Notes under the pieces: model-generated | What the model was told of the DNA's origin: nothing | What the model saw: only the letters and a program-made list of their open reading frames with translations | Databases searched by the model: none | Virus record (IMG/VR): IMGVR_UViG_3300023284_001594 | Coordinates: 1 to 28,731 of that record | Reading direction: 5' to 3' (one strand) | Length of the DNA: 28,731 nucleotides | Source: a virus | Shown here: positions 1,895 through 22,627 of the stretch, piece after piece | Position numbering within the stretch: position 1 is the first letter of the stretch | Layout: every line of letters begins with the position of its first letter | Translations under genes and position numbers: made by a program

Positions 1895-4111
1895 ATGGCA
1901 GAAAAATTAAGATTAAGGTCGAATGGTAACGGAGATGTCTATCTCTATGTAGAAGATTCCACAGATGCTTCATTTGCAGCAGGAGGAGACAACGCCACTA
2001 ACGTATTTGCTATGAACACGTCGGTATCTGCTGATGTGATGCCTGCTGGCGCTACAGCAAATCTTACGTTTGCACCGGGAGCTAATGGGGATGTTACCCT
2101 ACGGCCCCACGGAACAGGCGACACGTTATTTGATACGGGGGACGCTCAAGTAGTTGCGGGAAATTTAGTTATACCCACTCCCAATGTAGGTCTTACACAG
2201 GGAGCGTTATTTGTTAGTACTAATCGATTCTTGCACAATTTTGGTGTCAATAATGTGTTTTTAGGAATTGGTGCGGGTAACACCTCTCACAACATAGTTA
2301 CTTCAGCAAACAATGTTGCTTTGGGATTTAATGCGCTGCCCGCATTAACGACTAATGCACGTGGTAATATAGCAATTGGACATGTAGCCATGTTCAGTTC
2401 AACTACCTGTCAAGCTACTACAGCGGTAGGACCCAACGCATTGGATTCTCTCATTACTGGAGATAATAATTGTGCGATTGGAGCTTCTTCGGGAACTAAT
2501 TTAATTACCGGAGCTGACAACACTTTTTTAGGTACCGGTTCAGGCAGCCTTTTAACTCTTGCTGACTCGAGCAATGTATGCATTTCTAATGACGGAACAG
2601 TCGGAGATAATAATACGATGCGTCTTGGCACACAAGGAGCGGGCGCAGGTCAACAAGATACTACCTTTATCGCTGGGATACACAGTGTTACTCCAGTTAA
2701 TCCAGGCCAACAACTTGTTATTATTGATAACACGGGCCAAATGGGCTCCACTGCTGGTGGTGCATTCACGACCGATACCTTTAGTACAGATGCAGGAAGT
2801 GCAGTACCTGCTGCGGGTATAATCACCATGGCTGGAGGTAGCAACCTCGGGTCTACGGGAGCTGGATCAACAGTTACCTTTAATTTAGATAATACCGTAA
2901 GCATCTCAGGATCTATGACTGCCGGAACCGGTTTAACTGCTACAACGGGAGATATAACCGCAGATGCGGGCGATGTAGTAGCTACGGCTGGTGATTTAGA
3001 AGCCACCTCTGGTCTTCTTGTAATGCCTGTAACAAATACGGCCATTGATGAAGGAGCTATCACCCTAGGTGGTACTCGTTTTATGCACGCTCGTGGTACT
3101 GACAATGTATTTTTGGGATCTGGAGCTGGTAATGCGACGTTTACGGTAGCAGGATGTGAATTCAATGTTGTAGCAGGTCAGGATGCGCTCACTGCTATGG
3201 CTACTAACTGTAGAAATAATGTGGTACTTGGCAGAAATGCTATGACAGCTGCTACTGATTCTAGAGGGAATGTAGCGATAGGATTTAATTCGTGTATTGC
3301 CCAATTAACACAATTAGCAAATACCGCTGTAGGTCAAAATACTCTTACGGTTGCAACTACTGGAGCAGGGCTAAATACTGCTATAGGTCAAGGTACTTTA
3401 GCTTTGGTTGTTACCGGAGATTCTAATACAGCTCTCGGAACTGGAGCTGGAGGTGCTTTAACCACTTCTGATTCAGACAACATATGTATCGGGCATGCAG
3501 GGGTTGTAGGCGACAATAATATTCTTCGTATTGGTACTCAGGGTACAGGAGCTGCACAGCAAGATACTACATTTATAGCAGGCATTGTTGATGTTGCAGT
3601 TACCAATGATGGCATGGTCATCATCGATTCAGCCGGTCAGTTGGGTTCTCAAGTAGAACTTGTTATGCCGGAGAACCCAGCCTTCCTAGCCTATAACTCT
3701 GTTACTGATGCCAACGTTACCGGTGATGCAACCACCTTTACCGTGGATTTCGATACTGAAGTTTTTGACCAAGGAGGTGATTTTGCTGCTGATACTTTTA
3801 CAGCTCCTGTTACAGGAAGATATCAGCTGAACGCTACCGTTAATGTGAATGGGATAACAACCGCGATGACGACTGGTAACATTATCATAGCTACCTCTAA
3901 TGATAGTTACAGAACTGGCCAATTGGATGTAGGAAATGTGTTAGATGGTACGTCAGCTGCATATCAATTTAGTTTAAGCGTATTAGCTGATATGGACGCG
4001 GCCGATACATCAACCGTAACTGTTGCGTTAGTAGGTGGTGCGTTGGTGGCAGATGTAGTGGGAGGAGCAACTACACTATTCACAAATTTTTCAGGATATT
4101 TAGCAAGTTAG
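1895..4111 (+). CDS. Large adhesin-like fibre: two YadA-head-like modules plus C1q-like tip
   Basis: 738 residues. Two homologous modules (residues ~109-290 and ~393-580) each begin RF-x-H-x-x-G-x-x-NVFLG-x-GAGN and contain many N-x-A-x-G repeats (NVALG, NIAIG, NTAVG, NTALG) typical of YadA-like trimeric beta-roll heads. Each ends GTQG-x-G-x-x-QQDTTFIAGI. Between them lies the STDAGSAVPAAG module shared with the 4491 gene. Residues ~594-738 resemble a C1q/TNF-type jelly roll (FDTEVFDQGG, FTAPVTGRYQL, FSGYLAS). Expected to be a homotrimeric fibre or adhesin on the virion; receptor unknown. SD GGGTAGG precedes the ATG. Confidence 0.8.
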   Translation: MAEKLRLRSNGNGDVYLYVEDSTDASFAAGGDNATNVFAMNTSVSADVMPAGATANLTFAPGANGDVTLRPHGTGDTLFDTGDAQVVAGNLVIPTPNVGLTQGALFVSTNRFLHNFGVNNVFLGIGAGNTSHNIVTSANNVALGFNALPALTTNARGNIAIGHVAMFSSTTCQATTAVGPNALDSLITGDNNCAIGASSGTNLITGADNTFLGTGSGSLLTLADSSNVCISNDGTVGDNNTMRLGTQGAGAGQQDTTFIAGIHSVTPVNPGQQLVIIDNTGQMGSTAGGAFTTDTFSTDAGSAVPAAGIITMAGGSNLGSTGAGSTVTFNLDNTVSISGSMTAGTGLTATTGDITADAGDVVATAGDLEATSGLLVMPVTNTAIDEGAITLGGTRFMHARGTDNVFLGSGAGNATFTVAGCEFNVVAGQDALTAMATNCRNNVVLGRNAMTAATDSRGNVAIGFNSCIAQLTQLANTAVGQNTLTVATTGAGLNTAIGQGTLALVVTGDSNTALGTGAGGALTTSDSDNICIGHAGVVGDNNILRIGTQGTGAAQQDTTFIAGIVDVAVTNDGMVIIDSAGQLGSQVELVMPENPAFLAYNSVTDANVTGDATTFTVDFDTEVFDQGGDFAADTFTAPVTGRYQLNATVNVNGITTAMTTGNIIIATSNDSYRTGQLDVGNVLDGTSAAYQFSLSVLADMDAADTSTVTVALVGGALVADVVGGATTLFTNFSGYLAS

Positions 4112-4119
4112 GAAAAAGA

Positions 4120-4431
4120 ATGAAAATTTCAGTAAATGATCAAGAACTATACACATTGAGTGACGTTAAAAAACAAGTTATTTGTAATGACATATCGTTG
4201 GATGTGTTGGATCAAGATTTAAAGAGGCGCCTTGAGTGGGTTCTCATGCACAAGTATGAACAATGCATGAAGAAATTGCGCAATCAGTGGATGCCCAAGC
4301 TCAAAGGACGCGTTGAATCAATTCCATTAGATGATGATGCATTTGCTCAGCTGATATTCAGCCAATCAGATTATAAAGATCGTAAAGCTCGTGATCTAGA
4401 AAATGTACCAGCTGAAATTGTAGTCCCTTAA
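4120..4431 (+). CDS. Small phage protein after fibre gene, unknown
   Basis: 103 residues, mostly alpha-helical and charged (LKRRLEWVLMHKYEQCMKKLRNQW), unlike the beta-rich neighbours, with ALAQ-like segment AFAQLIFSQSDYKDRKARD near the end. The ATG is 8 nt after the fibre stop. A fibre chaperone or regulatory role would fit the position, but that is a guess; family not identified with certainty. Confidence 0.65.
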   Translation: MKISVNDQELYTLSDVKKQVICNDISLDVLDQDLKRRLEWVLMHKYEQCMKKLRNQWMPKLKGRVESIPLDDDAFAQLIFSQSDYKDRKARDLENVPAEIVVP

Positions 4432-4455
4432 AAACTTCGTTTGTTAGGAGAGTCA

Positions 4456-4497
4456 ATGGCAAAGCCTGAAGAAGTCCGGAGGACGAAGACATGGTAA
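4456..4497 (+). CDS. Possible 13-residue leader peptide MAKPEEVRRTKTW
   Basis: An ATG with its own ribosome site (TAGGAG, then 5 nt) opens a 13-codon frame whose TAA overlaps the start of the next gene (ATGGTAA at 4491-4497). The peptide therefore covers the strong GGAGGA site of the large fibre gene, an arrangement suited to translational coupling. It may also be a chance ORF. Confidence 0.3.
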   Translation: MAKPEEVRRTKTW

Positions 4498-6506
4498 AGA
4501 GGCGTACAGGACTAGATCCTTTAGCTTATATGGGTGTAGAGCCTTCTATGCCTGCACAGTTTGTGCGTGAATCTCGCGTTCCTACAACCACCGATTACGA
4601 CGGTTTTAACATTGGCACCGTGTGGCTGGTAATGGTAACAAATCAAGTTTTTATGTTGGTAGATAAATCCAACCTTATCGGTACTTGGCGCGAATTTACC
4701 GCCGGCGTTGGTGCAATTAATACACTTACTGGAGATGTAGGTGGCGCTGTTCCGCCCACAGCTAATAACATAAATATTCAAGGCGGAGACCATTTTGTCT
4801 TTACTGGTAACCCGGGAGCGTCAAGTTTGACATTGACCTCTGATGGTACCGTAGCTACGCAATTCGATACAGATGCAGGAAGTGCAATCCCTGCTGCTGA
4901 CATTCTACAAGTATTGGGTGGTGCAGGAGTGGCTACCGCAGGAGCCGGAAATACAGTTACTATTAGCGCGGCCGGAAGTGTAGCAGTTCAAATTGATACT
5001 GATGTAGGTGGTCCCGTAGTCCCGGTAGCAGGGGTTCTCGAAGTTTTTGGTGGCAATAATATAACCACCACAGGTGTAGGTAACAGAGTTACGGCTGATC
5101 TTACGGGCACAACAGATTTTGCAGTTCAAAGAGGTAATGCTGGAGGAAGTTTAACCTCTGTACCTGTGGGTCTAGATGGCCAGGTCATCATTGGTGCCAC
5201 AGCGGCCGCACCACTTTTTGCGACTATGACCTCTACAGGCGGCACAATTATATTTACTCCTGGAGCTAACACGTTAAATCTAGAAAATGCAGCAACTGCA
5301 GTAGACGTAGTGACGGATGCCGGTACGGCAACTATAGCTGCGGGTATCCTGAACGTGGTTGGGGGTGCAAATATTAGCACGTCTGGTGCAGGGAATACCG
5401 TTACAGTAGTTGTCTCAGGAACAGCAAACTTTAATCCTCAAATGGGTAATGCGACGGGTTCTCTTTCTGATATCGGTACTATGACTGACGGTGATCTCAT
5501 CATTGGATCGACCGGTGTTGCGCCAGCCGTTGCACAATTAACTGCGGGAGTGGGTATCGGGATAGCAAATGCAGCCGGTTCGATTACGATTACGGCTACA
5601 GGAGCTGCTACGGGTGATACTGTTGTTACCACCTTTAATGCTTCTGGGACATGGACACAGAATGCTAATGCCAGATTTGTCATCTTTTATATTTTCAGTA
5701 GTGGTGCTGGTGGTGGTTCAGGCGGACGCGGCGCCACTCGTGGCAATGGAGGTGCAGGAGGAGGAAGTGGTGGTCCTACTGTCTATTCCATTCCAGCTTC
5801 TCTGATTGGCGCTACCGAAACGGTTACTATTGCTGCACTCGCAGCAGGAGGAGCTGCACAAGCTAGTGATAATAGCAGTGGAAATGCCGGCACTAATTTT
5901 AATATAAGTACGTTTGGAACTACCTTTCCTATTCCGGGAGGTATTAACACTACTTCTGGTTTATCTGGAGGAGGGCAAGGAGGAGGAATAAGCACGTCGG
6001 CTCCATCAGGAGGTATATCAGGATTGTCTCAATATCACAATACGCAAGGCTTTGTGAATGGCGGAACGACTCAATCGGGAGGAAGAGGTGGTGTCACGAC
6101 CGGAAGTCGCCCTCAAGTAGGCAACACATTTGTATTTTGTGGGCCCGGTGGTGGTGGCGGTGGCATGTTTGATGGAACTGGATTTTCAGGTGCTGATTCA
6201 CGAGAAGGATCCCTCATAAATCCACCCGGGATTTATACCTTTGGAACAGCCGGTACCGGAGGGGCTACAGGAGTAGCTGGGGGTGACGGAAATGATGCTG
6301 GTACCGAAACAATGCCTTATCATTTAGCTGGTATCGGAGGTGGCGGTGGAGGAGGCCATGCTACCAATCCGGGAGCTGGTGGAGACGGCGGTATTCCCGC
6401 CGGCGCTGGCGGCGGTGGAGGTGGTGTGGTGAATGGTAATCTATCCGGCGCTGGTGGTGATGGGGCTCGCGGCCAAGTTATTGTAATAGAATTTTTAGGA
6501 GCGTAA
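4491..6506 (+). CDS. Tail fibre with glycine-rich receptor tip
   Basis: 671 residues. The N-terminal ~75 residues (PLAYMGVEP, GTVWLVMVTNQVFMLVDK) look like an anchoring domain. Residues ~85-320 contain at least three copies of a ~40-residue beta module, D-T-D-x-G-x-x-(I/V)P-x-A-x-(I/V)L-x-V-x-GG-x-N-x-x-T-x-G-x-GN-x-V-T. From residue ~380 (FNASGTWTQNANARFVIFYIFSSGAGGGSGG) to the end it matches the glycine-rich fibre-tip type, with many GGGGGG runs likely to form polyglycine helices, and a final RGQVIVIEF strand. Probably the main receptor-binding fibre. GGAGGA lies 7 nt before the ATG. Hypervariability of glycine-rich loops is known for T-even adhesins; here it is only suggested. Confidence 0.8.
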   Translation: MVKRRTGLDPLAYMGVEPSMPAQFVRESRVPTTTDYDGFNIGTVWLVMVTNQVFMLVDKSNLIGTWREFTAGVGAINTLTGDVGGAVPPTANNINIQGGDHFVFTGNPGASSLTLTSDGTVATQFDTDAGSAIPAADILQVLGGAGVATAGAGNTVTISAAGSVAVQIDTDVGGPVVPVAGVLEVFGGNNITTTGVGNRVTADLTGTTDFAVQRGNAGGSLTSVPVGLDGQVIIGATAAAPLFATMTSTGGTIIFTPGANTLNLENAATAVDVVTDAGTATIAAGILNVVGGANISTSGAGNTVTVVVSGTANFNPQMGNATGSLSDIGTMTDGDLIIGSTGVAPAVAQLTAGVGIGIANAAGSITITATGAATGDTVVTTFNASGTWTQNANARFVIFYIFSSGAGGGSGGRGATRGNGGAGGGSGGPTVYSIPASLIGATETVTIAALAAGGAAQASDNSSGNAGTNFNISTFGTTFPIPGGINTTSGLSGGGQGGGISTSAPSGGISGLSQYHNTQGFVNGGTTQSGGRGGVTTGSRPQVGNTFVFCGPGGGGGGMFDGTGFSGADSREGSLINPPGIYTFGTAGTGGATGVAGGDGNDAGTETMPYHLAGIGGGGGGGHATNPGAGGDGGIPAGAGGGGGGVVNGNLSGAGGDGARGQVIVIEFLGA

Positions 6507-16602: not shown

Positions 16603-17005
16603 ATTTCTACCCCCTGAAGGGATGTATATCTTTGTCATTTCGGGTATTGATATTGGAATAATACGATGGTCTCCACAACTGGAAGAAGGTGACGAGATGG
16701 TGATGGTATATGAAAGCTTCTACCAGAAATATACAGATGCCTCCTCCCTTTATGCTTGGTTACCGTTAGGAGTACCATTTAATTACTTTAGAGATAACTT
16801 TGAGGATGATTCTGTAAGTGCCTATAAGGACACAGAAGATTTTAAAGAGCTCAAAAGATTAATTAAAGAGTTGGATGGCTTCAGTAAGGAAGAATCTGAG
16901 AGCTGGGTAGAGTGGTGGGATGAAGAAGGGCAAGATAATGCATCGGGGATGAAAAGAATGTTTTATCGTTACCAAATATGCCTTTTACTTAAGAAATTAA
17001 CTTAA
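16580..17005 (+). CDS. DUF551-like phage protein
   Basis: 141 residues. The N-terminal half, KWIKFSEFLPPEGMYIFVI ... YAWLPLG, follows the W-I-x-x-x-x-x-LP-x-x-G ... W-x-PL pattern of DUF551, a small phage domain without known function. The C-terminal half is an acidic helix (EESESWVEWWDEEGQD). GGAGGAG precedes the ATG. It ends 1 nt before the terminase gene. Confidence 0.55.
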   Translation: MKWIKFSEFLPPEGMYIFVISGIDIGIIRWSPQLEEGDEMVMVYESFYQKYTDASSLYAWLPLGVPFNYFRDNFEDDSVSAYKDTEDFKELKRLIKELDGFSKEESESWVEWWDEEGQDNASGMKRMFYRYQICLLLKKLT

Positions 17006-17006
17006 A

Positions 17007-19190
17007 ATGACCACAGAGAGACGGATAACATTGAATAAGTTTGAGCCACGTGACTATCAGATCCCAATTATTGAGGCTATAGAGGACAAAGGCTATAAAC
17101 GTGTACTGGCTATCATGCCACGGCGTGCAGGTAAGGATATTACGGCCTTCAACCTATGTATACGTGCTCTTTTGAAGAAAATCTGCGTCATCTACTACAT
17201 ATTTCCTACCTACTCACAGGGTAAGAAAATACTTTGGGATTCGATTACTAATGAGGGTGAAAAGATACTCGATTATATTCCTGAAGAGCTTATTGAGTCT
17301 AAAAACAGTCAGGAAATGAAGATAAAGTTCATGAATGGTAGTCTCTTCCAGATTGTAGGGTCAGACAATTACGATAGCCTTATGGGTACCAATCCTCAAG
17401 GTGTAGTATTCAGTGAATATGCCCTTCAAGACCCTAGAGCTTATCAATATATACGCCCCATACTTACCGCAAATGAAGGATGGGCGCTCTTTATATCTAC
17501 ACCACGGGGCAAGAACCATCTTTGGGAATTGTATAACATAGCTCAACAGTCACCGGATTGGTTCTGTTACAAGCTCAGCCTTGATGAAACTAAGCATATT
17601 CCTCTTGCAGAGATAGAGAAAGAGCGTGCTGAAGGAATTATGAGTGAGGATTTAATACAACAAGAATATTATACTTCATTTACTCTTGGTGTAGAAGGCT
17701 CATACTACAGCAAATACTTAGCTAGGATGCGTCTTGAGGGTAAGATTGGCGTTGTTCCGTGGGAGAACGGTATACAAGTCCATTCTGCATGGGACATCGG
17801 ACACCGTGATTCTACTTGTATTTTAATGTACCAGATCTGTGGGCAAACCGTGCGCATAATAGATAGTTATGAAAACAATAAGCATGGTTTAGAGCACTAT
17901 GTTGACGTATTGAAGGCTAAACCTTACTCCTGGGGTAAGCATTTCGCTCCTCATGACATAGCAGTGACTGAGTGGGGCTCAGGTATATCCCGCTTAGAGA
18001 AAGCTAGACAGTTGGGTATCAAGTTTGAGTATAGGCTCGATAAGCAGAGCAGAGCTCGTTCAGTCTTGCCAGATCTATCTATTATGGATGGAATAGAGGG
18101 AGTACGCTCCTTATTTAGTAAGGTATGGATAGATGAAGAGAAGTGCTCTGATCTCATCAAGGCATTAGAGAATTACCGTCAAGAGTACGATGTTAAGTTA
18201 AAGGTCTATAACAATAGGCCACTTCACAATTGGGCTTCTCACTATTGTTTTACCGCTGATACCCAAATGTTGACGCGTACCGGAATTCGTCCTATCATAG
18301 AGGTTCAAGACAATGACGAAGTTAAAACCTTATATGGGTGGGAAAAATGTATCGGAGCCAAGAGTTTTCGAAAGAATGCGAACGTAGTTCAGGTGAAGTT
18401 TGCCGATGGTGTGAAAGTGAAGTGTACGCCGGATCATTTATTCTTGACGGAACAAGGATGGATATCTGCGGAGAACCTCAAGCACGGTATGACAATCCAG
18501 TCGTCCTTGATGGAGAAACCCAAACCTACCGAAATTGCACCTATCGCTTATGGGGGCAACGGTACTTACAGCAATGCTATAAGAAGCGGCTACATAAAGA
18601 TGTATGGTGTGATGCTTATGGAGAAATTCCTACAAACACTCACATCCACCATAGAGACACTGATCGCTTCAATAATGCACGTGAGAACCTTATTTGTTTG
18701 CCAGCTGCCGAACATTTTAAACTTAAAAAGTCATTCAATCCCGGCATATCAGATAAAGCCAGAGCAGCAGCTGCTAAGTGGCACGGGTCTGACGATGGAA
18801 GAGAATGGCACAAGAAACATGCGCAAACCTCTCGCCCATGGGAACATCACAAGAGAATTGAAGGAACCTGTGAGTTTTGTGGAAAAACAACACTCTTGCT
18901 TCAACGTAAAAACAACAATCAAAGATTCTGTCACCCCAACTGCAAAGCCTCTTATGGTAGAAGAAGTAGAAAGGCTAGAAGAGAAGCATGATGTATGGTG
19001 CATTAATGTCCCCAAAGCAGGACATTTTTCGCTAGCTAATGGAGCCATAGTTCACAATTCAGATGCGATGAGATATCTGGCATTGTCATTACCTAAGACA
19101 AGAGATGGAGTAAGTAGAGAGGAGCTAGATAATCAATATGCCCGCGCCGTGTATGGTACAGAGGGCAAGTTACCACCGTTCTTTAGGTAG
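17007..19190 (+). CDS. terL: Terminase large subunit containing an intein
   Basis: 727 residues; removing the intein (414-684) leaves 456, a normal TerL length. ATPase: Walker A PRRAGKD (38-44), Walker B GVVFSEY with catalytic E137 (Ser in place of the usual Asp), coupling motif FISTPRGKNHLWELY (162-176). RNase-H-like nuclease: AWDIGHRDS (D263), APHDIA (D317), and HNWASHY/SDAMRYL, where the intein interrupts the conserved SH-x-ADAxRY motif one residue before the likely third metal-binding Asp (D686). The enzyme drives DNA into the prohead through the portal encoded 1.4 kb downstream and cuts it. Active enzyme requires intein splicing. Confidence 0.9.
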   Translation: MTTERRITLNKFEPRDYQIPIIEAIEDKGYKRVLAIMPRRAGKDITAFNLCIRALLKKICVIYYIFPTYSQGKKILWDSITNEGEKILDYIPEELIESKNSQEMKIKFMNGSLFQIVGSDNYDSLMGTNPQGVVFSEYALQDPRAYQYIRPILTANEGWALFISTPRGKNHLWELYNIAQQSPDWFCYKLSLDETKHIPLAEIEKERAEGIMSEDLIQQEYYTSFTLGVEGSYYSKYLARMRLEGKIGVVPWENGIQVHSAWDIGHRDSTCILMYQICGQTVRIIDSYENNKHGLEHYVDVLKAKPYSWGKHFAPHDIAVTEWGSGISRLEKARQLGIKFEYRLDKQSRARSVLPDLSIMDGIEGVRSLFSKVWIDEEKCSDLIKALENYRQEYDVKLKVYNNRPLHNWASHYCFTADTQMLTRTGIRPIIEVQDNDEVKTLYGWEKCIGAKSFRKNANVVQVKFADGVKVKCTPDHLFLTEQGWISAENLKHGMTIQSSLMEKPKPTEIAPIAYGGNGTYSNAIRSGYIKMYGVMLMEKFLQTLTSTIETLIASIMHVRTLFVCQLPNILNLKSHSIPAYQIKPEQQLLSGTGLTMEENGTRNMRKPLAHGNITRELKEPVSFVEKQHSCFNVKTTIKDSVTPTAKPLMVEEVERLEEKHDVWCINVPKAGHFSLANGAIVHNSDAMRYLALSLPKTRDGVSREELDNQYARAVYGTEGKLPPFFR
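18246..19058 (+). mobile_element. Intein in TerL (271 residues)
   Basis: Splicing motifs are complete: block A begins C414-F-T-A-D-T-Q-M-L with ADTQMLTRTG and a following EVKTLYG strand; block B has VKCTPDHLFL (T474-x-x-H477); block F is HDVWCINVPKAGHFSL; block G is ANGAIVHN with terminal H683-N684 and S685 as the +1 nucleophile. Cys1, TxxH, penultimate His, terminal Asn and +1 Ser are all present, so it should splice. In the intein's own frame the middle (~500-655) has no LAGLIDADG or HNH motif; that DNA carries an HNH gene in another frame. Confidence 0.92.
18458..18991 (+). CDS. HNH homing endonuclease nested out of frame inside the intein
   Basis: 177 residues from the ATG at 18458 (the frame is open from GTG 18338, with another ATG at 18347), read one base back from the terminase frame. 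It contains THIHHRDTDRFNNARENLIC, a textbook HNH core (His-His, Asn-Asn, Asn, then EH at 125-126 of the longer frame), a KWHGSDDGREWHKKH helix common after phage HNH cores, and a C-terminal zinc finger CEFCG ... FCHPNC followed by RRSRKARR. The gene begins just after intein block B and its TGA (18989-18991) lies at the first residues of block F, exactly filling the gap where an in-frame nuclease would sit. Translation must come from internal initiation or frameshifting; the local SD is weak. Confidence 0.85.
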   Translation: MDICGEPQARYDNPVVLDGETQTYRNCTYRLWGQRYLQQCYKKRLHKDVWCDAYGEIPTNTHIHHRDTDRFNNARENLICLPAAEHFKLKKSFNPGISDKARAAAAKWHGSDDGREWHKKHAQTSRPWEHHKRIEGTCEFCGKTTLLLQRKNNNQRFCHPNCKASYGRRSRKARREA

Positions 19191-19199
19191 GAATACAAG

Positions 19200-19433
19200 A
19201 TGAAAGAACGTTTTGAGCGTATCAAAAAGATAATAGATAGGGCCGACGAGATTCCTCGCGAGCGTAGAAATGCCCTTCGTATGTTCTTGGAAATGGGAAT
19301 GCACTTTAACTTCATGATGAAGAAGCGTGATACGCCTTTTTGTAAACAATGTTTCTCTCATCTGGAGGATTCTATTGCGGGACAGATAATATCTATCCTT
19401 CAGAGGGAATGTAACCACACGCTTTTTAAATAA
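19200..19433 (+). CDS. Small phage protein after terL, unknown
   Basis: 77 residues, basic N-terminal helix (MKERFERIKKIIDRADEIP), FCKQC and a later Cys/His (CNH) that together could bind zinc. TAGGA precedes the ATG, 10 nt after terL. Not recognised. Confidence 0.55.
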   Translation: MKERFERIKKIIDRADEIPRERRNALRMFLEMGMHFNFMMKKRDTPFCKQCFSHLEDSIAGQIISILQRECNHTLFK

Positions 19434-20533: not shown

Positions 20534-20560
20534 TGATTTCTCTTACCCAAAGGAATGTGT

Positions 20561-22627
20561 ATGCCTCTCTTCCCCTCAATCGGCCCGGAGTATTATGACG
20601 AAAAGGATCGCCCTATCCTAAGTAAGATGCAGGCGTTCTACTCCCAATCTATTACGATTAATGAAAGTTTCTGGGCTGAAGCCGATACTGACACCAGATT
20701 TGAAGCAGGTGATCAAACTCTCTGGCAAGACATATATGGGAACCTTCCCCTTAATCGTCGTAGACAGTTCAATTTTAACCGCATTAGACGCGTTAAGAAT
20801 ATGATTGGTGGTCATCAGCGTAGAAACAGAAAATCTACCGTTGTGATACCCATCGAGAATGGTGATGACAATACAGCAGATCAATTGAGCAAGGTGCTTA
20901 TTTGGCAAAATACACAGGCGGGTGTACTGGACACGATCTCTTCTGCTTTTGATGGAGCTTTAGTCACGGGTATGAACCTATTACAAGTCTGGATGGACTA
21001 CCGTTCGGACCCTCTTTCAGGAGATATTAGGGTAGATAACTGTAGCTATAACAGCTTTCTCATAGATCCCTTCTTCCGTAAGCCAGATCTTTCAGATTGT
21101 AATGGTATATGGAAGCGAACGTTTGTAACGAAGCGTGAAGCACTCTCCCTACTGCCGCATTACACAGATCAGATCATGCAGTTAGTGGGGATAGATTCAC
21201 GTGACGGTAAGTTCCAGTTTATGCCCGAATCCTACAACTTCAGCGTCTATAATCTCTTGGCTTATGACGAATATTACTATCGTGACTATCGTATGGCCAA
21301 GATGGTGGTCGATACAGAAAGTAGTAAGTCGGTAGAATGGACCTCACAGAATGCAGAGGGGTTAAAAAGTTTACTTAAGCTGTATCCACAGCTCACGCTC
21401 ATTGAGCATGAAGTTCCAACGGTCAAACTGGCTATAGTCGTGCAGGGTAAAGTTATGTATGATGGGCCACAACCAAGCGGTATAGATGTGTATCCATTTG
21501 TTCCGGTGCTAGGATACTATAATCCACAGTTAGCCTACTTTCCCTTGCGTATTCAAGGAATTGTCCGCGGATTACGTGATGCACAGTTCCTCTATAACCG
21601 TAGACGGGTAATTGAGCTCGATATTCTAGAATCACAAATTAACTCAGGGTGGAAATTTAAAGAAAATGCCCTGGTTAACCCTGAGCATGTATATCTTGAA
21701 GGCCAGGGCCGTGGTTTAGCGCTCAAAGAAGAAGCCTCAATGGCTGATGTAGAAAAGATTCAACCTGCGGCAGTTCCACCATCAATGATTCAGCTTTCGG
21801 AACTGTTAGGTAAGGAAATACAAGAGATATCCGGCGTTAATGAAGAGTTATTGGGATCTGCGACAGACGAAAAGGCTGGCATTTTATCTATGCTTCGCCA
21901 AGGAGCAGGATTAACTACCTTACAGATTCTCTTTGATCAATTAGATAATGCACAGAAGTTGCTAGGCAATATCATGATAAAGATGATACAGAACAACTTC
22001 ACGCCAGGAAAAGTAGAACGTATTATTGCGGAGCCAGCTGCTGAAAACTTCTATGACAAAGCATTTGGTAAATATGATTCAGTAGTAGAGGAAGGTTTAA
22101 ACACCAGTACACAGAAGCAGATGCAGTTTGCCCAAATGTTACAATTGCGTGAAGCAGGAGTACCTATACCAGATGAAGCCCTACTCGAGGCTGCAACTAT
22201 ACAAGATAAGAAAAAGATCATCGAAATGGTCCAAGCTCAACAACAACAGCAACAACAACAACAAGAAAAAGAAGCTCAAGTGCAAATGGCCAATCTACAA
22301 GCGCAAACTAAGTTGGCTGAAGCGCGGGCAACAGCCGATACAGGCTTGGGCATTGAGCGTCTTAGCCGCATTGATGAAAATAAAGCACTGGCTGATGAAC
22401 GTAGAGCCGAAGCCGTAAAAGATAGAGAGCTCGGAATACTACATCTAGTCAAGGCATTGAAAGAGATAGAGACCGTAGATTTACAACAGCTTGAAAAGAT
22501 TATTGCATTGTCTATGATCGTTAAGAATGAAGAACAGAAGACTCAACAACAGCGTGACCAACAGGATACGAACATGCAAGTGATGCGAGGAGCTGGCCAG
22601 CAGCCTGAGCCGCGTAGCACACTGTAG
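20561..22627 (+). CDS. Portal protein, P22 type
   Basis: 688 residues from the ATG at 20561; an in-frame ATG at 20555 sits on top of the AAGGA site (20550-20554), so the second is preferred. FNRIRRVKNMIGGHQRRNRKS, SAFDGALVTGMNLLQVWMDY, NSFLIDPFFRKPDLSDCNG and GVNEELLGSATDEKAG are typical of P22-like portals, whose dodecamer forms the DNA channel at one capsid vertex and docks the terminase. The C-terminal ~140 residues are a Gln-rich coiled region with nine consecutive Gln (560-568), matching the helical barrel/tail part of the family. Suggests a podovirus-like packaging vertex. Confidence 0.9.
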   Translation: MPLFPSIGPEYYDEKDRPILSKMQAFYSQSITINESFWAEADTDTRFEAGDQTLWQDIYGNLPLNRRRQFNFNRIRRVKNMIGGHQRRNRKSTVVIPIENGDDNTADQLSKVLIWQNTQAGVLDTISSAFDGALVTGMNLLQVWMDYRSDPLSGDIRVDNCSYNSFLIDPFFRKPDLSDCNGIWKRTFVTKREALSLLPHYTDQIMQLVGIDSRDGKFQFMPESYNFSVYNLLAYDEYYYRDYRMAKMVVDTESSKSVEWTSQNAEGLKSLLKLYPQLTLIEHEVPTVKLAIVVQGKVMYDGPQPSGIDVYPFVPVLGYYNPQLAYFPLRIQGIVRGLRDAQFLYNRRRVIELDILESQINSGWKFKENALVNPEHVYLEGQGRGLALKEEASMADVEKIQPAAVPPSMIQLSELLGKEIQEISGVNEELLGSATDEKAGILSMLRQGAGLTTLQILFDQLDNAQKLLGNIMIKMIQNNFTPGKVERIIAEPAAENFYDKAFGKYDSVVEEGLNTSTQKQMQFAQMLQLREAGVPIPDEALLEAATIQDKKKIIEMVQAQQQQQQQQQEKEAQVQMANLQAQTKLAEARATADTGLGIERLSRIDENKALADERRAEAVKDRELGILHLVKALKEIETVDLQQLEKIIALSMIVKNEEQKTQQQRDQQDTNMQVMRGAGQQPEPRSTL
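22238..22264 (+). repeat. CAA/CAG microsatellite (9 codons)
   Basis: Eight CAA and one CAG codon in a row encode poly-Gln in the portal C-terminus. Being trinucleotide, slippage changes length but not frame. Confidence 0.9.

Follow-up and report, generated by a model that had tools for sequence, protein, structure and literature searches.

An HNH endonuclease gene nested out of frame within a phage terminase intein

Fractured genes with split inteins, in which an endonuclease gene sits between the IntN and IntC halves, were reportedly described by Dassa and colleagues in 2009. The endonuclease I-HmuI is encoded in a group I intron. Inteins possess a conserved endonuclease insertion site, the HEN site (PMC6801210). 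The ShiLan domain, reported by Arsenault, Gosselin, and Gogarten in 2025 (PMC11855218), consists of an HNH read out of frame within a phage methylase, and has no splicing domain. The same article cites a preprint on actinobacteriophage inteins of "non-canonical architecture" (10.1101/2025.01.02.630785) in connection with overlapping reading frames and further topics. The DNA considered here, termed the window, comprises the 28,731 bases of a virus record (IMGVR_UViG_3300023284_001594), with coordinates counted from its first letter. Its terminase large subunit (TerL) gene is interrupted by an intein whose middle also encodes an HNH protein in another frame. The insert is very probably a mobile intein in which a separate gene, overlapping the intein middle in the -1 frame and possessing its own start, encodes the homing endonuclease that drives the joint copying of both.

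The features of the locus are as follows.

17007-19190, plus strand: TerL open reading frame (ORF), interrupted by the intein (phrog_2 terminase, E 8e-25)
17007-18245, plus strand: TerL N-extein
18246-19058, plus strand: intein, 271 aa (Pfam Intein_splicing, E 5e-11; Cys1, block B TPDH, C-terminal His-Asn in VHN, +1 Ser)
18246-18518, plus strand: N-terminal half of the Hint domain, intein residues 1-91 (AlphaFold2 confidence score, pLDDT, 91-98)
18336-18342, plus strand: Shine-Dalgarno-like GGGTGGG, 4 nt before ATG 18347
18347-18991, plus strand: nested HNH endonuclease gene, 214 aa, in the -1 frame relative to TerL (offset +2) (HNH_3, E 1.1e-9; phrog_15471, E 1.9e-25)
18338 (GTG) and 18458 (ATG), plus strand: alternative HNH starts
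18519-18941, plus strand: splice-frame linker, intein residues 92-232, predicted disordered (pLDDT mostly 40-68), with the HNH core here in the other frame
18587-18715, plus strand: HNH catalytic core in the HNH frame (LHKD...HIHHRD...NN...EH; HNH_3 match to residues 44-86 of the product from 18458)
18869-18943, plus strand: C-terminal four-Cys zinc finger of the HNH protein (C175, C178, C195, C199), with local similarity of low Z to FCS/YacG zinc fingers
18942-19058, plus strand: C-terminal half of the Hint domain, intein residues 233-271 (pLDDT 94-98 for residues 241-271)
19059-19187, plus strand: TerL C-extein

The insert is an intein by profile, residues, fold, and the existence of intein-free relatives. 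An earlier note, made from the sequence alone, had described a complete Hint-type splicing domain in the terminase frame, and the profile match together with C1, TPDH, VHN, and the +1 Ser bears this out. The modelled protein adopts the horseshoe-shaped Hint fold (AlphaFold2, Foldseek), and its closest solved structure is the gp41-1 intein, with a profile match at E 9e-17, a Foldseek E of 4e-7, and a TM score (target) of 0.84. The TerL ORF is one continuous frame, open from end to end. TerL relatives that lack the intein (L003-L007) align uninterrupted over the joined exteins, so that removal of the intein restores the host protein; one of them, L003, has 85% protein identity, and 75% DNA identity over 1322 bases across the joined exteins. 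Protein splicing of TerL is predicted. An RNA intron was considered for the nature of the insert and rejected, as no group I or II intron or other known RNA was matched in Rfam up to E 1 within 17000-19400. No DNA-level relative was found in the phage collection, nor a second copy within the window's own record.

The HNH gene was predicted in the earlier note to lie one frame back from the terminase and to end at 18991, as proved to be the case. This frame is free of stops over 18326-18991; stops number 29 in the remaining sense frame of the intein and 9-17 in its minus frames. The first 50 bases of the Hint C-terminal half double as the end of the HNH gene. Its product matches the HNH_3 and phrog_15471 profiles and carries the His-Asn-His residues, with H83, H102, N114, and H123 (numbering from 18347) invariant in 76 sequences; zinc-finger residues C175, C178, and C199 are likewise invariant and C195 nearly so. 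The AlphaFold2 model has a mean pLDDT of 87.7, falling below 50 at residues 1-21 only. I-HmuI (PDB 1U3E) is the best neighbour both in structure (VIA-align Z 6.4, rmsd 3.2, 80 aligned residues) and in sequence profile (E 0.008). With Foldseek by itself, no PDB match of the HNH protein was significant (best I-HmuI, E 0.43), and the link to I-HmuI comes from realignment and the sequence profile only. The nested protein is probably a nuclease. Since it sits in the -1 frame and not in that of the Hint domain, it is no in-frame endonuclease.

The nested arrangement is a class, widespread and largely unannotated, and is neither due to chance nor confined to one genome. This HNH family was used to seed alignment-based scans of genome and viral contigs, which gave 373 HNH places: 284 (223 distinct) have a Hint domain in frame HNH+1, 2 have it in HNH+2, 3 are truncated, and 84 are of other kinds. 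The distinct nested inteins therefore number 225, of which 223 share the frame of the window. The remaining two, L316 (1942-2400) and L323 (2483-2950), are TerL inteins with the HNH in the +1 frame, so that both out-of-frame registers exist. HNH fused in frame with Hint was found in 0 of the 373 homologous places. A sequencing or assembly frameshift in an ordinary in-frame HNH intein is rejected by these many independent homologues, and its probability is practically nil: nothing found speaks in its favour, and each of the 225 distinct cases, three of them from named phage genomes, is out of frame while the splice frame stays continuous.

The three named genomes, found by tblastn of phages, are Highwayman, Tetrasphaera phage TJE1, and Rhodobacteraceae phage LS06-2018-MD07, each with a TerL intein holding an HNH in the same shifted frame; their annotation covers TerL only and leaves the nested nuclease out. 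In the phage collection 18 records match the window HNH, and the sole actinophage among them is TJE1 (two records). One virus relative of the window HNH, at 47% identity, is nested likewise in the third intein of a TerL with three (L002, 486-4754); the second intein of that gene contains a LAGLIDADG_3 match. Most inserts interrupt TerL at its nuclease motif (near DH|xDAxRY), using several codon registers; a few use other sites, at DWGFA|xDPTAL (L113-L115, L133) and at a further position in L137. Intein borders in the first sample were set by a search for the first Cys/Ser/Ala and for N/Q followed by C/S/T, so the border residues partly reflect the rule used to locate them. Block B TxxH, which played no part in that search, is present in 91 of 92 members of this sample. 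A separate scan of inteins without this HNH gave no further nested HNH of the family. It did reveal one antisense nuclease: a Mu-F-like minor head protein intein (ORF 3233-5320 of L144, also L145) bears on the opposite strand (4136-4888, minus strand) a DUF559 (Vsr-like) endonuclease of 250 aa (Pfam E 2e-10), an antisense example of dual coding in an intein, separate from the HNH case. The intein of L134 (ORF with Hint at 4001) has an in-frame middle that appears Vsr-like by eye and is possibly the in-frame counterpart.

The two frames are open for different reasons. The splice frame never contains a stop in nested cases: across 92 distinct nested genes, 0 were observed against ~335 expected from synonymous re-coding of the HNH. 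The corresponding frame of 19 HNH genes outside intact inteins contains 146 stops against 125 expected, several of these genes being fractured ones that likewise have no need of that open frame. In pairwise comparisons, linker substitution rates at intein positions 1, 2, and 3 are 0.18, 0.36, and 0.23, which correspond to HNH positions 2, 3, and 1. Outside the HNH gene the highest rate falls on intein position 3, at 0.31 before the gene and 0.45 after it, and where the 5' part of the HNH gene overlies Hint-N the intein pattern prevails (0.12, 0.13, and 0.24). Since the linker peaks at HNH position 3 and the flanks at intein position 3, the frames are unequally constrained. Within the linker these rates point to the HNH as the selected protein, with the splice frame kept merely as stop-free filler, and the AlphaFold2 models, in which the Hint halves (pLDDT ~97) and the HNH protein are ordered and the linker is not, agree with the HNH as the selected product of the middle. 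The proposal that the whole intein middle is dual-coding is thus retained for the two open frames and not for equal constraint. A decaying HNH relic without a product is very improbable. One nested intein, present in L092 (3015-3479) and L093 (3911-4375), does have a broken HNH frame beside an intact intein frame, where decay apparently hits the nuclease first; the HNH frame is not broken generally, the HNH-codon substitution pattern persists among close pairs whose DNA is 79-98% identical, and the active-site residues are invariant.

The start of the HNH gene is more likely ATG 18347 than ATG 18458, the start first proposed, because GGGTGGG lies 4 nt upstream of the former, that start is kept in the sub-clade, and the modelled HNH beta-strands begin before 18458. 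ATG 18347 is at intein position +101, and ATG or GTG occupies this position in the window's sub-clade, with GGATGGG/GGGTGGG-type sequence just 5' of it. A larger sub-clade has its ATG at intein +86, preceded by GGGGAGG/GAGGT-type sequence. A site as strong as the Shine-Dalgarno (SD) sequence of the window arises in 0.3% of intein-frame synonymous re-codings, and the mean over loci of the best SD energy is -6.9 kcal/mol against -1.0 kcal/mol in such re-codings. These signals indicate that the HNH is probably initiated independently inside the intein, which would decouple nuclease production from splicing, as the earlier note had suggested. Production by -1 ribosomal frameshifting off TerL/Hint-N would fit the -1 frame common to most cases, and is improbable in view of the two cases in the +1 frame and the strong SD/start pairs in the HNH frame; inspection by eye, in place of a systematic test, showed no slippery heptamer upstream in the window.

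Several points weigh against the reading as a mobile intein with a separate, overlapping HNH gene. The SD null from synonymous re-coding was taken without requiring an open HNH frame, and for this reason the count of start codons across the frames of the real sequences is the fairer comparison. By that count a strong SD with a start is found in the HNH frame at 46 of 90 loci, in the intein frame at 5, and in the third frame at 19, and the difference between HNH and third frame is only moderate (p 0.003). An SD sequence is missing in some AT-rich or Bacteroidota-linked nested loci (L156, L157). The substitution counts pool related pairs and are not independent. Finally, sampling started from the HNH family, so that the proportion of nested cases is no census; it shows how this HNH lives, and not the frequency of nested nucleases among all inteins.

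The relatives of the locus form a continuum of nested, fractured, and free-standing HNH and of mini-inteins without HNH. Treating every HNH place without an intact intein as free-standing is wrong, as the 84 places left over include 33 fractured genes (28 of them distinct in the tree set), comprising TerL-N with IntN, an HNH ORF, and IntC with TerL-C. In Lactobacillus phage CL2 (L023, 506-2774), the TerL coding sequence 506-1954 ends in IntN and is followed by the HNH, and an unannotated ORF to 2774 holds IntC and the C-terminal TerL piece (...VHN|CMDATRYF). Where the IntN and IntC of a fractured locus share a frame, 8-37 stops separate them; the window is not fractured, its host gene and intein forming one ORF. 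Free-standing members of the family adjoin TerL in PAE1, SN1, and EauM-23. Another, unannotated, lies between TerL and portal in Brevundimonas phage Poludnitsa (L016, 2501-2956). Short mini-inteins without any endonuclease occupy the same TerL site in L131 (TerL 2711-4516), L132, and L128. An approximate FastTree phylogeny built from 302 HNH sequences requires 35 changes among the four states, with the starred branches alone demanding at least 7 for the fractured state. That a free-standing HNH was inserted in the wrong frame, the origin put forward in the earlier note, fits the occurrence of both out-of-frame versions (L316 and L323 versus the rest) and the membership in one HNH family of free-standing and split-intein neighbours of TerL. 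The chances are about even that dual-coding inteins are a large undescribed class in phage terminases, with one HNH family residing in inteins repeatedly out of frame and never in frame, and shuttling between nested, fractured, and free-standing forms, with nested and naturally split inteins interconvertible.

The distribution of intein and HNH is consistent with a cassette that moves between terL genes. The closest TerL relative of the window is without an intein, and the nearest HNH/Hint relatives (L025, L026) differ from the nearest intein-bearing TerLs (L036, L045). Over 51 loci, Hint identity (outside the linker) correlates with HNH identity given TerL (partial Spearman 0.58), and HNH identity does not follow TerL given Hint (-0.005). 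A role of the HNH chiefly in packaging, as for terminase-adjacent HNH proteins of the HK97 type, would make the intein a mere location. Free-standing family members right beside TerL in several phages lend this some weight, yet it is unlikely, as the close relative L003 has no HNH at the site and HNH divergence follows Hint and not TerL.

Both frames, the selection pattern, the start signals, the architectures, and a divergence independent of TerL are read directly from sequence, and the mobile intein proposed here would join them in the following way. Translation of TerL would yield a TerL-intein precursor in which a non-conserved, probably disordered linker connects the Hint halves, and the Hint domain would excise itself and rejoin TerL. 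Other ribosomes would initiate at the internal SD/ATG and produce the HNH nuclease. This enzyme should then cleave terL genes that lack the intein, at the conserved nuclease motif, and repair of the cut would copy intein and HNH together; such cleavage and homing are predicted, the indirect signs of homing being the patchy distribution and the co-divergence of Hint and HNH. Selection would act on the HNH protein, with the splice frame kept free of stops. Once stops build up, the gene could persist only as a split intein with the HNH between its halves, the fractured form of the relatives.

Elsewhere in the window, a portal protein is encoded downstream of TerL (20555-22627; phrog_156, E 1e-74) and a tail-spike-like protein at 1895-4111 (phrog_4636, E 5e-18). 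The other large ORFs tested mostly have no PHROG match.

An intein and its endonuclease can thus be separate overlapping genes, maintained jointly over deep divergence, in a mobile element that packs two proteins into one stretch of DNA. The arrangement offers a natural test bed for dual-coding evolution, one frame being selected as protein and the other only stop-free. One gene family ties hidden out-of-frame HNH insertions to fractured split-intein genes. In practical terms, annotation had missed the nuclease in the three named genomes and the C-terminal TerL piece in CL2.

Among described systems, a literature search for out-of-frame endonucleases in true inteins gave the ShiLan work only; the preprint 10.1101/2025.01.02.630785 may hold an earlier report of such endonucleases. 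The ShiLan domain and the Pacc40 insertion resemble the window in having an HNH hidden out of frame in a phage-gene insertion, with the host frame open throughout and a patchy distribution, and at Pacc40 a related free-standing HNH adjoins the host gene (PMC11855218). ShiLan lacks a splicing domain and could not be classed by its authors as intein or intron, whereas the window has a full Hint domain around the HNH. The authors also saw no ribosome-binding site (PMC11855218), and here SD sites were found. Classical inteins with in-frame endonucleases, including HNH inteins, share the Hint fold and the position of the endonuclease in the usual region between blocks B and F (PMC6801210), but there the endonuclease is a domain of the excised protein and in the window it is a separate overlapping gene. 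The gp41-1 intein (PDB 6QAZ), although closest in Hint structure, has no endonuclease, and the likeness of I-HmuI to the nested HNH covers the HNH core only. Fractured genes have an endonuclease gene between IntN and IntC, as do the 33 TerL loci with an HNH of this family; the window instead has an uninterrupted intein, which the endonuclease gene overlaps without separating its halves.
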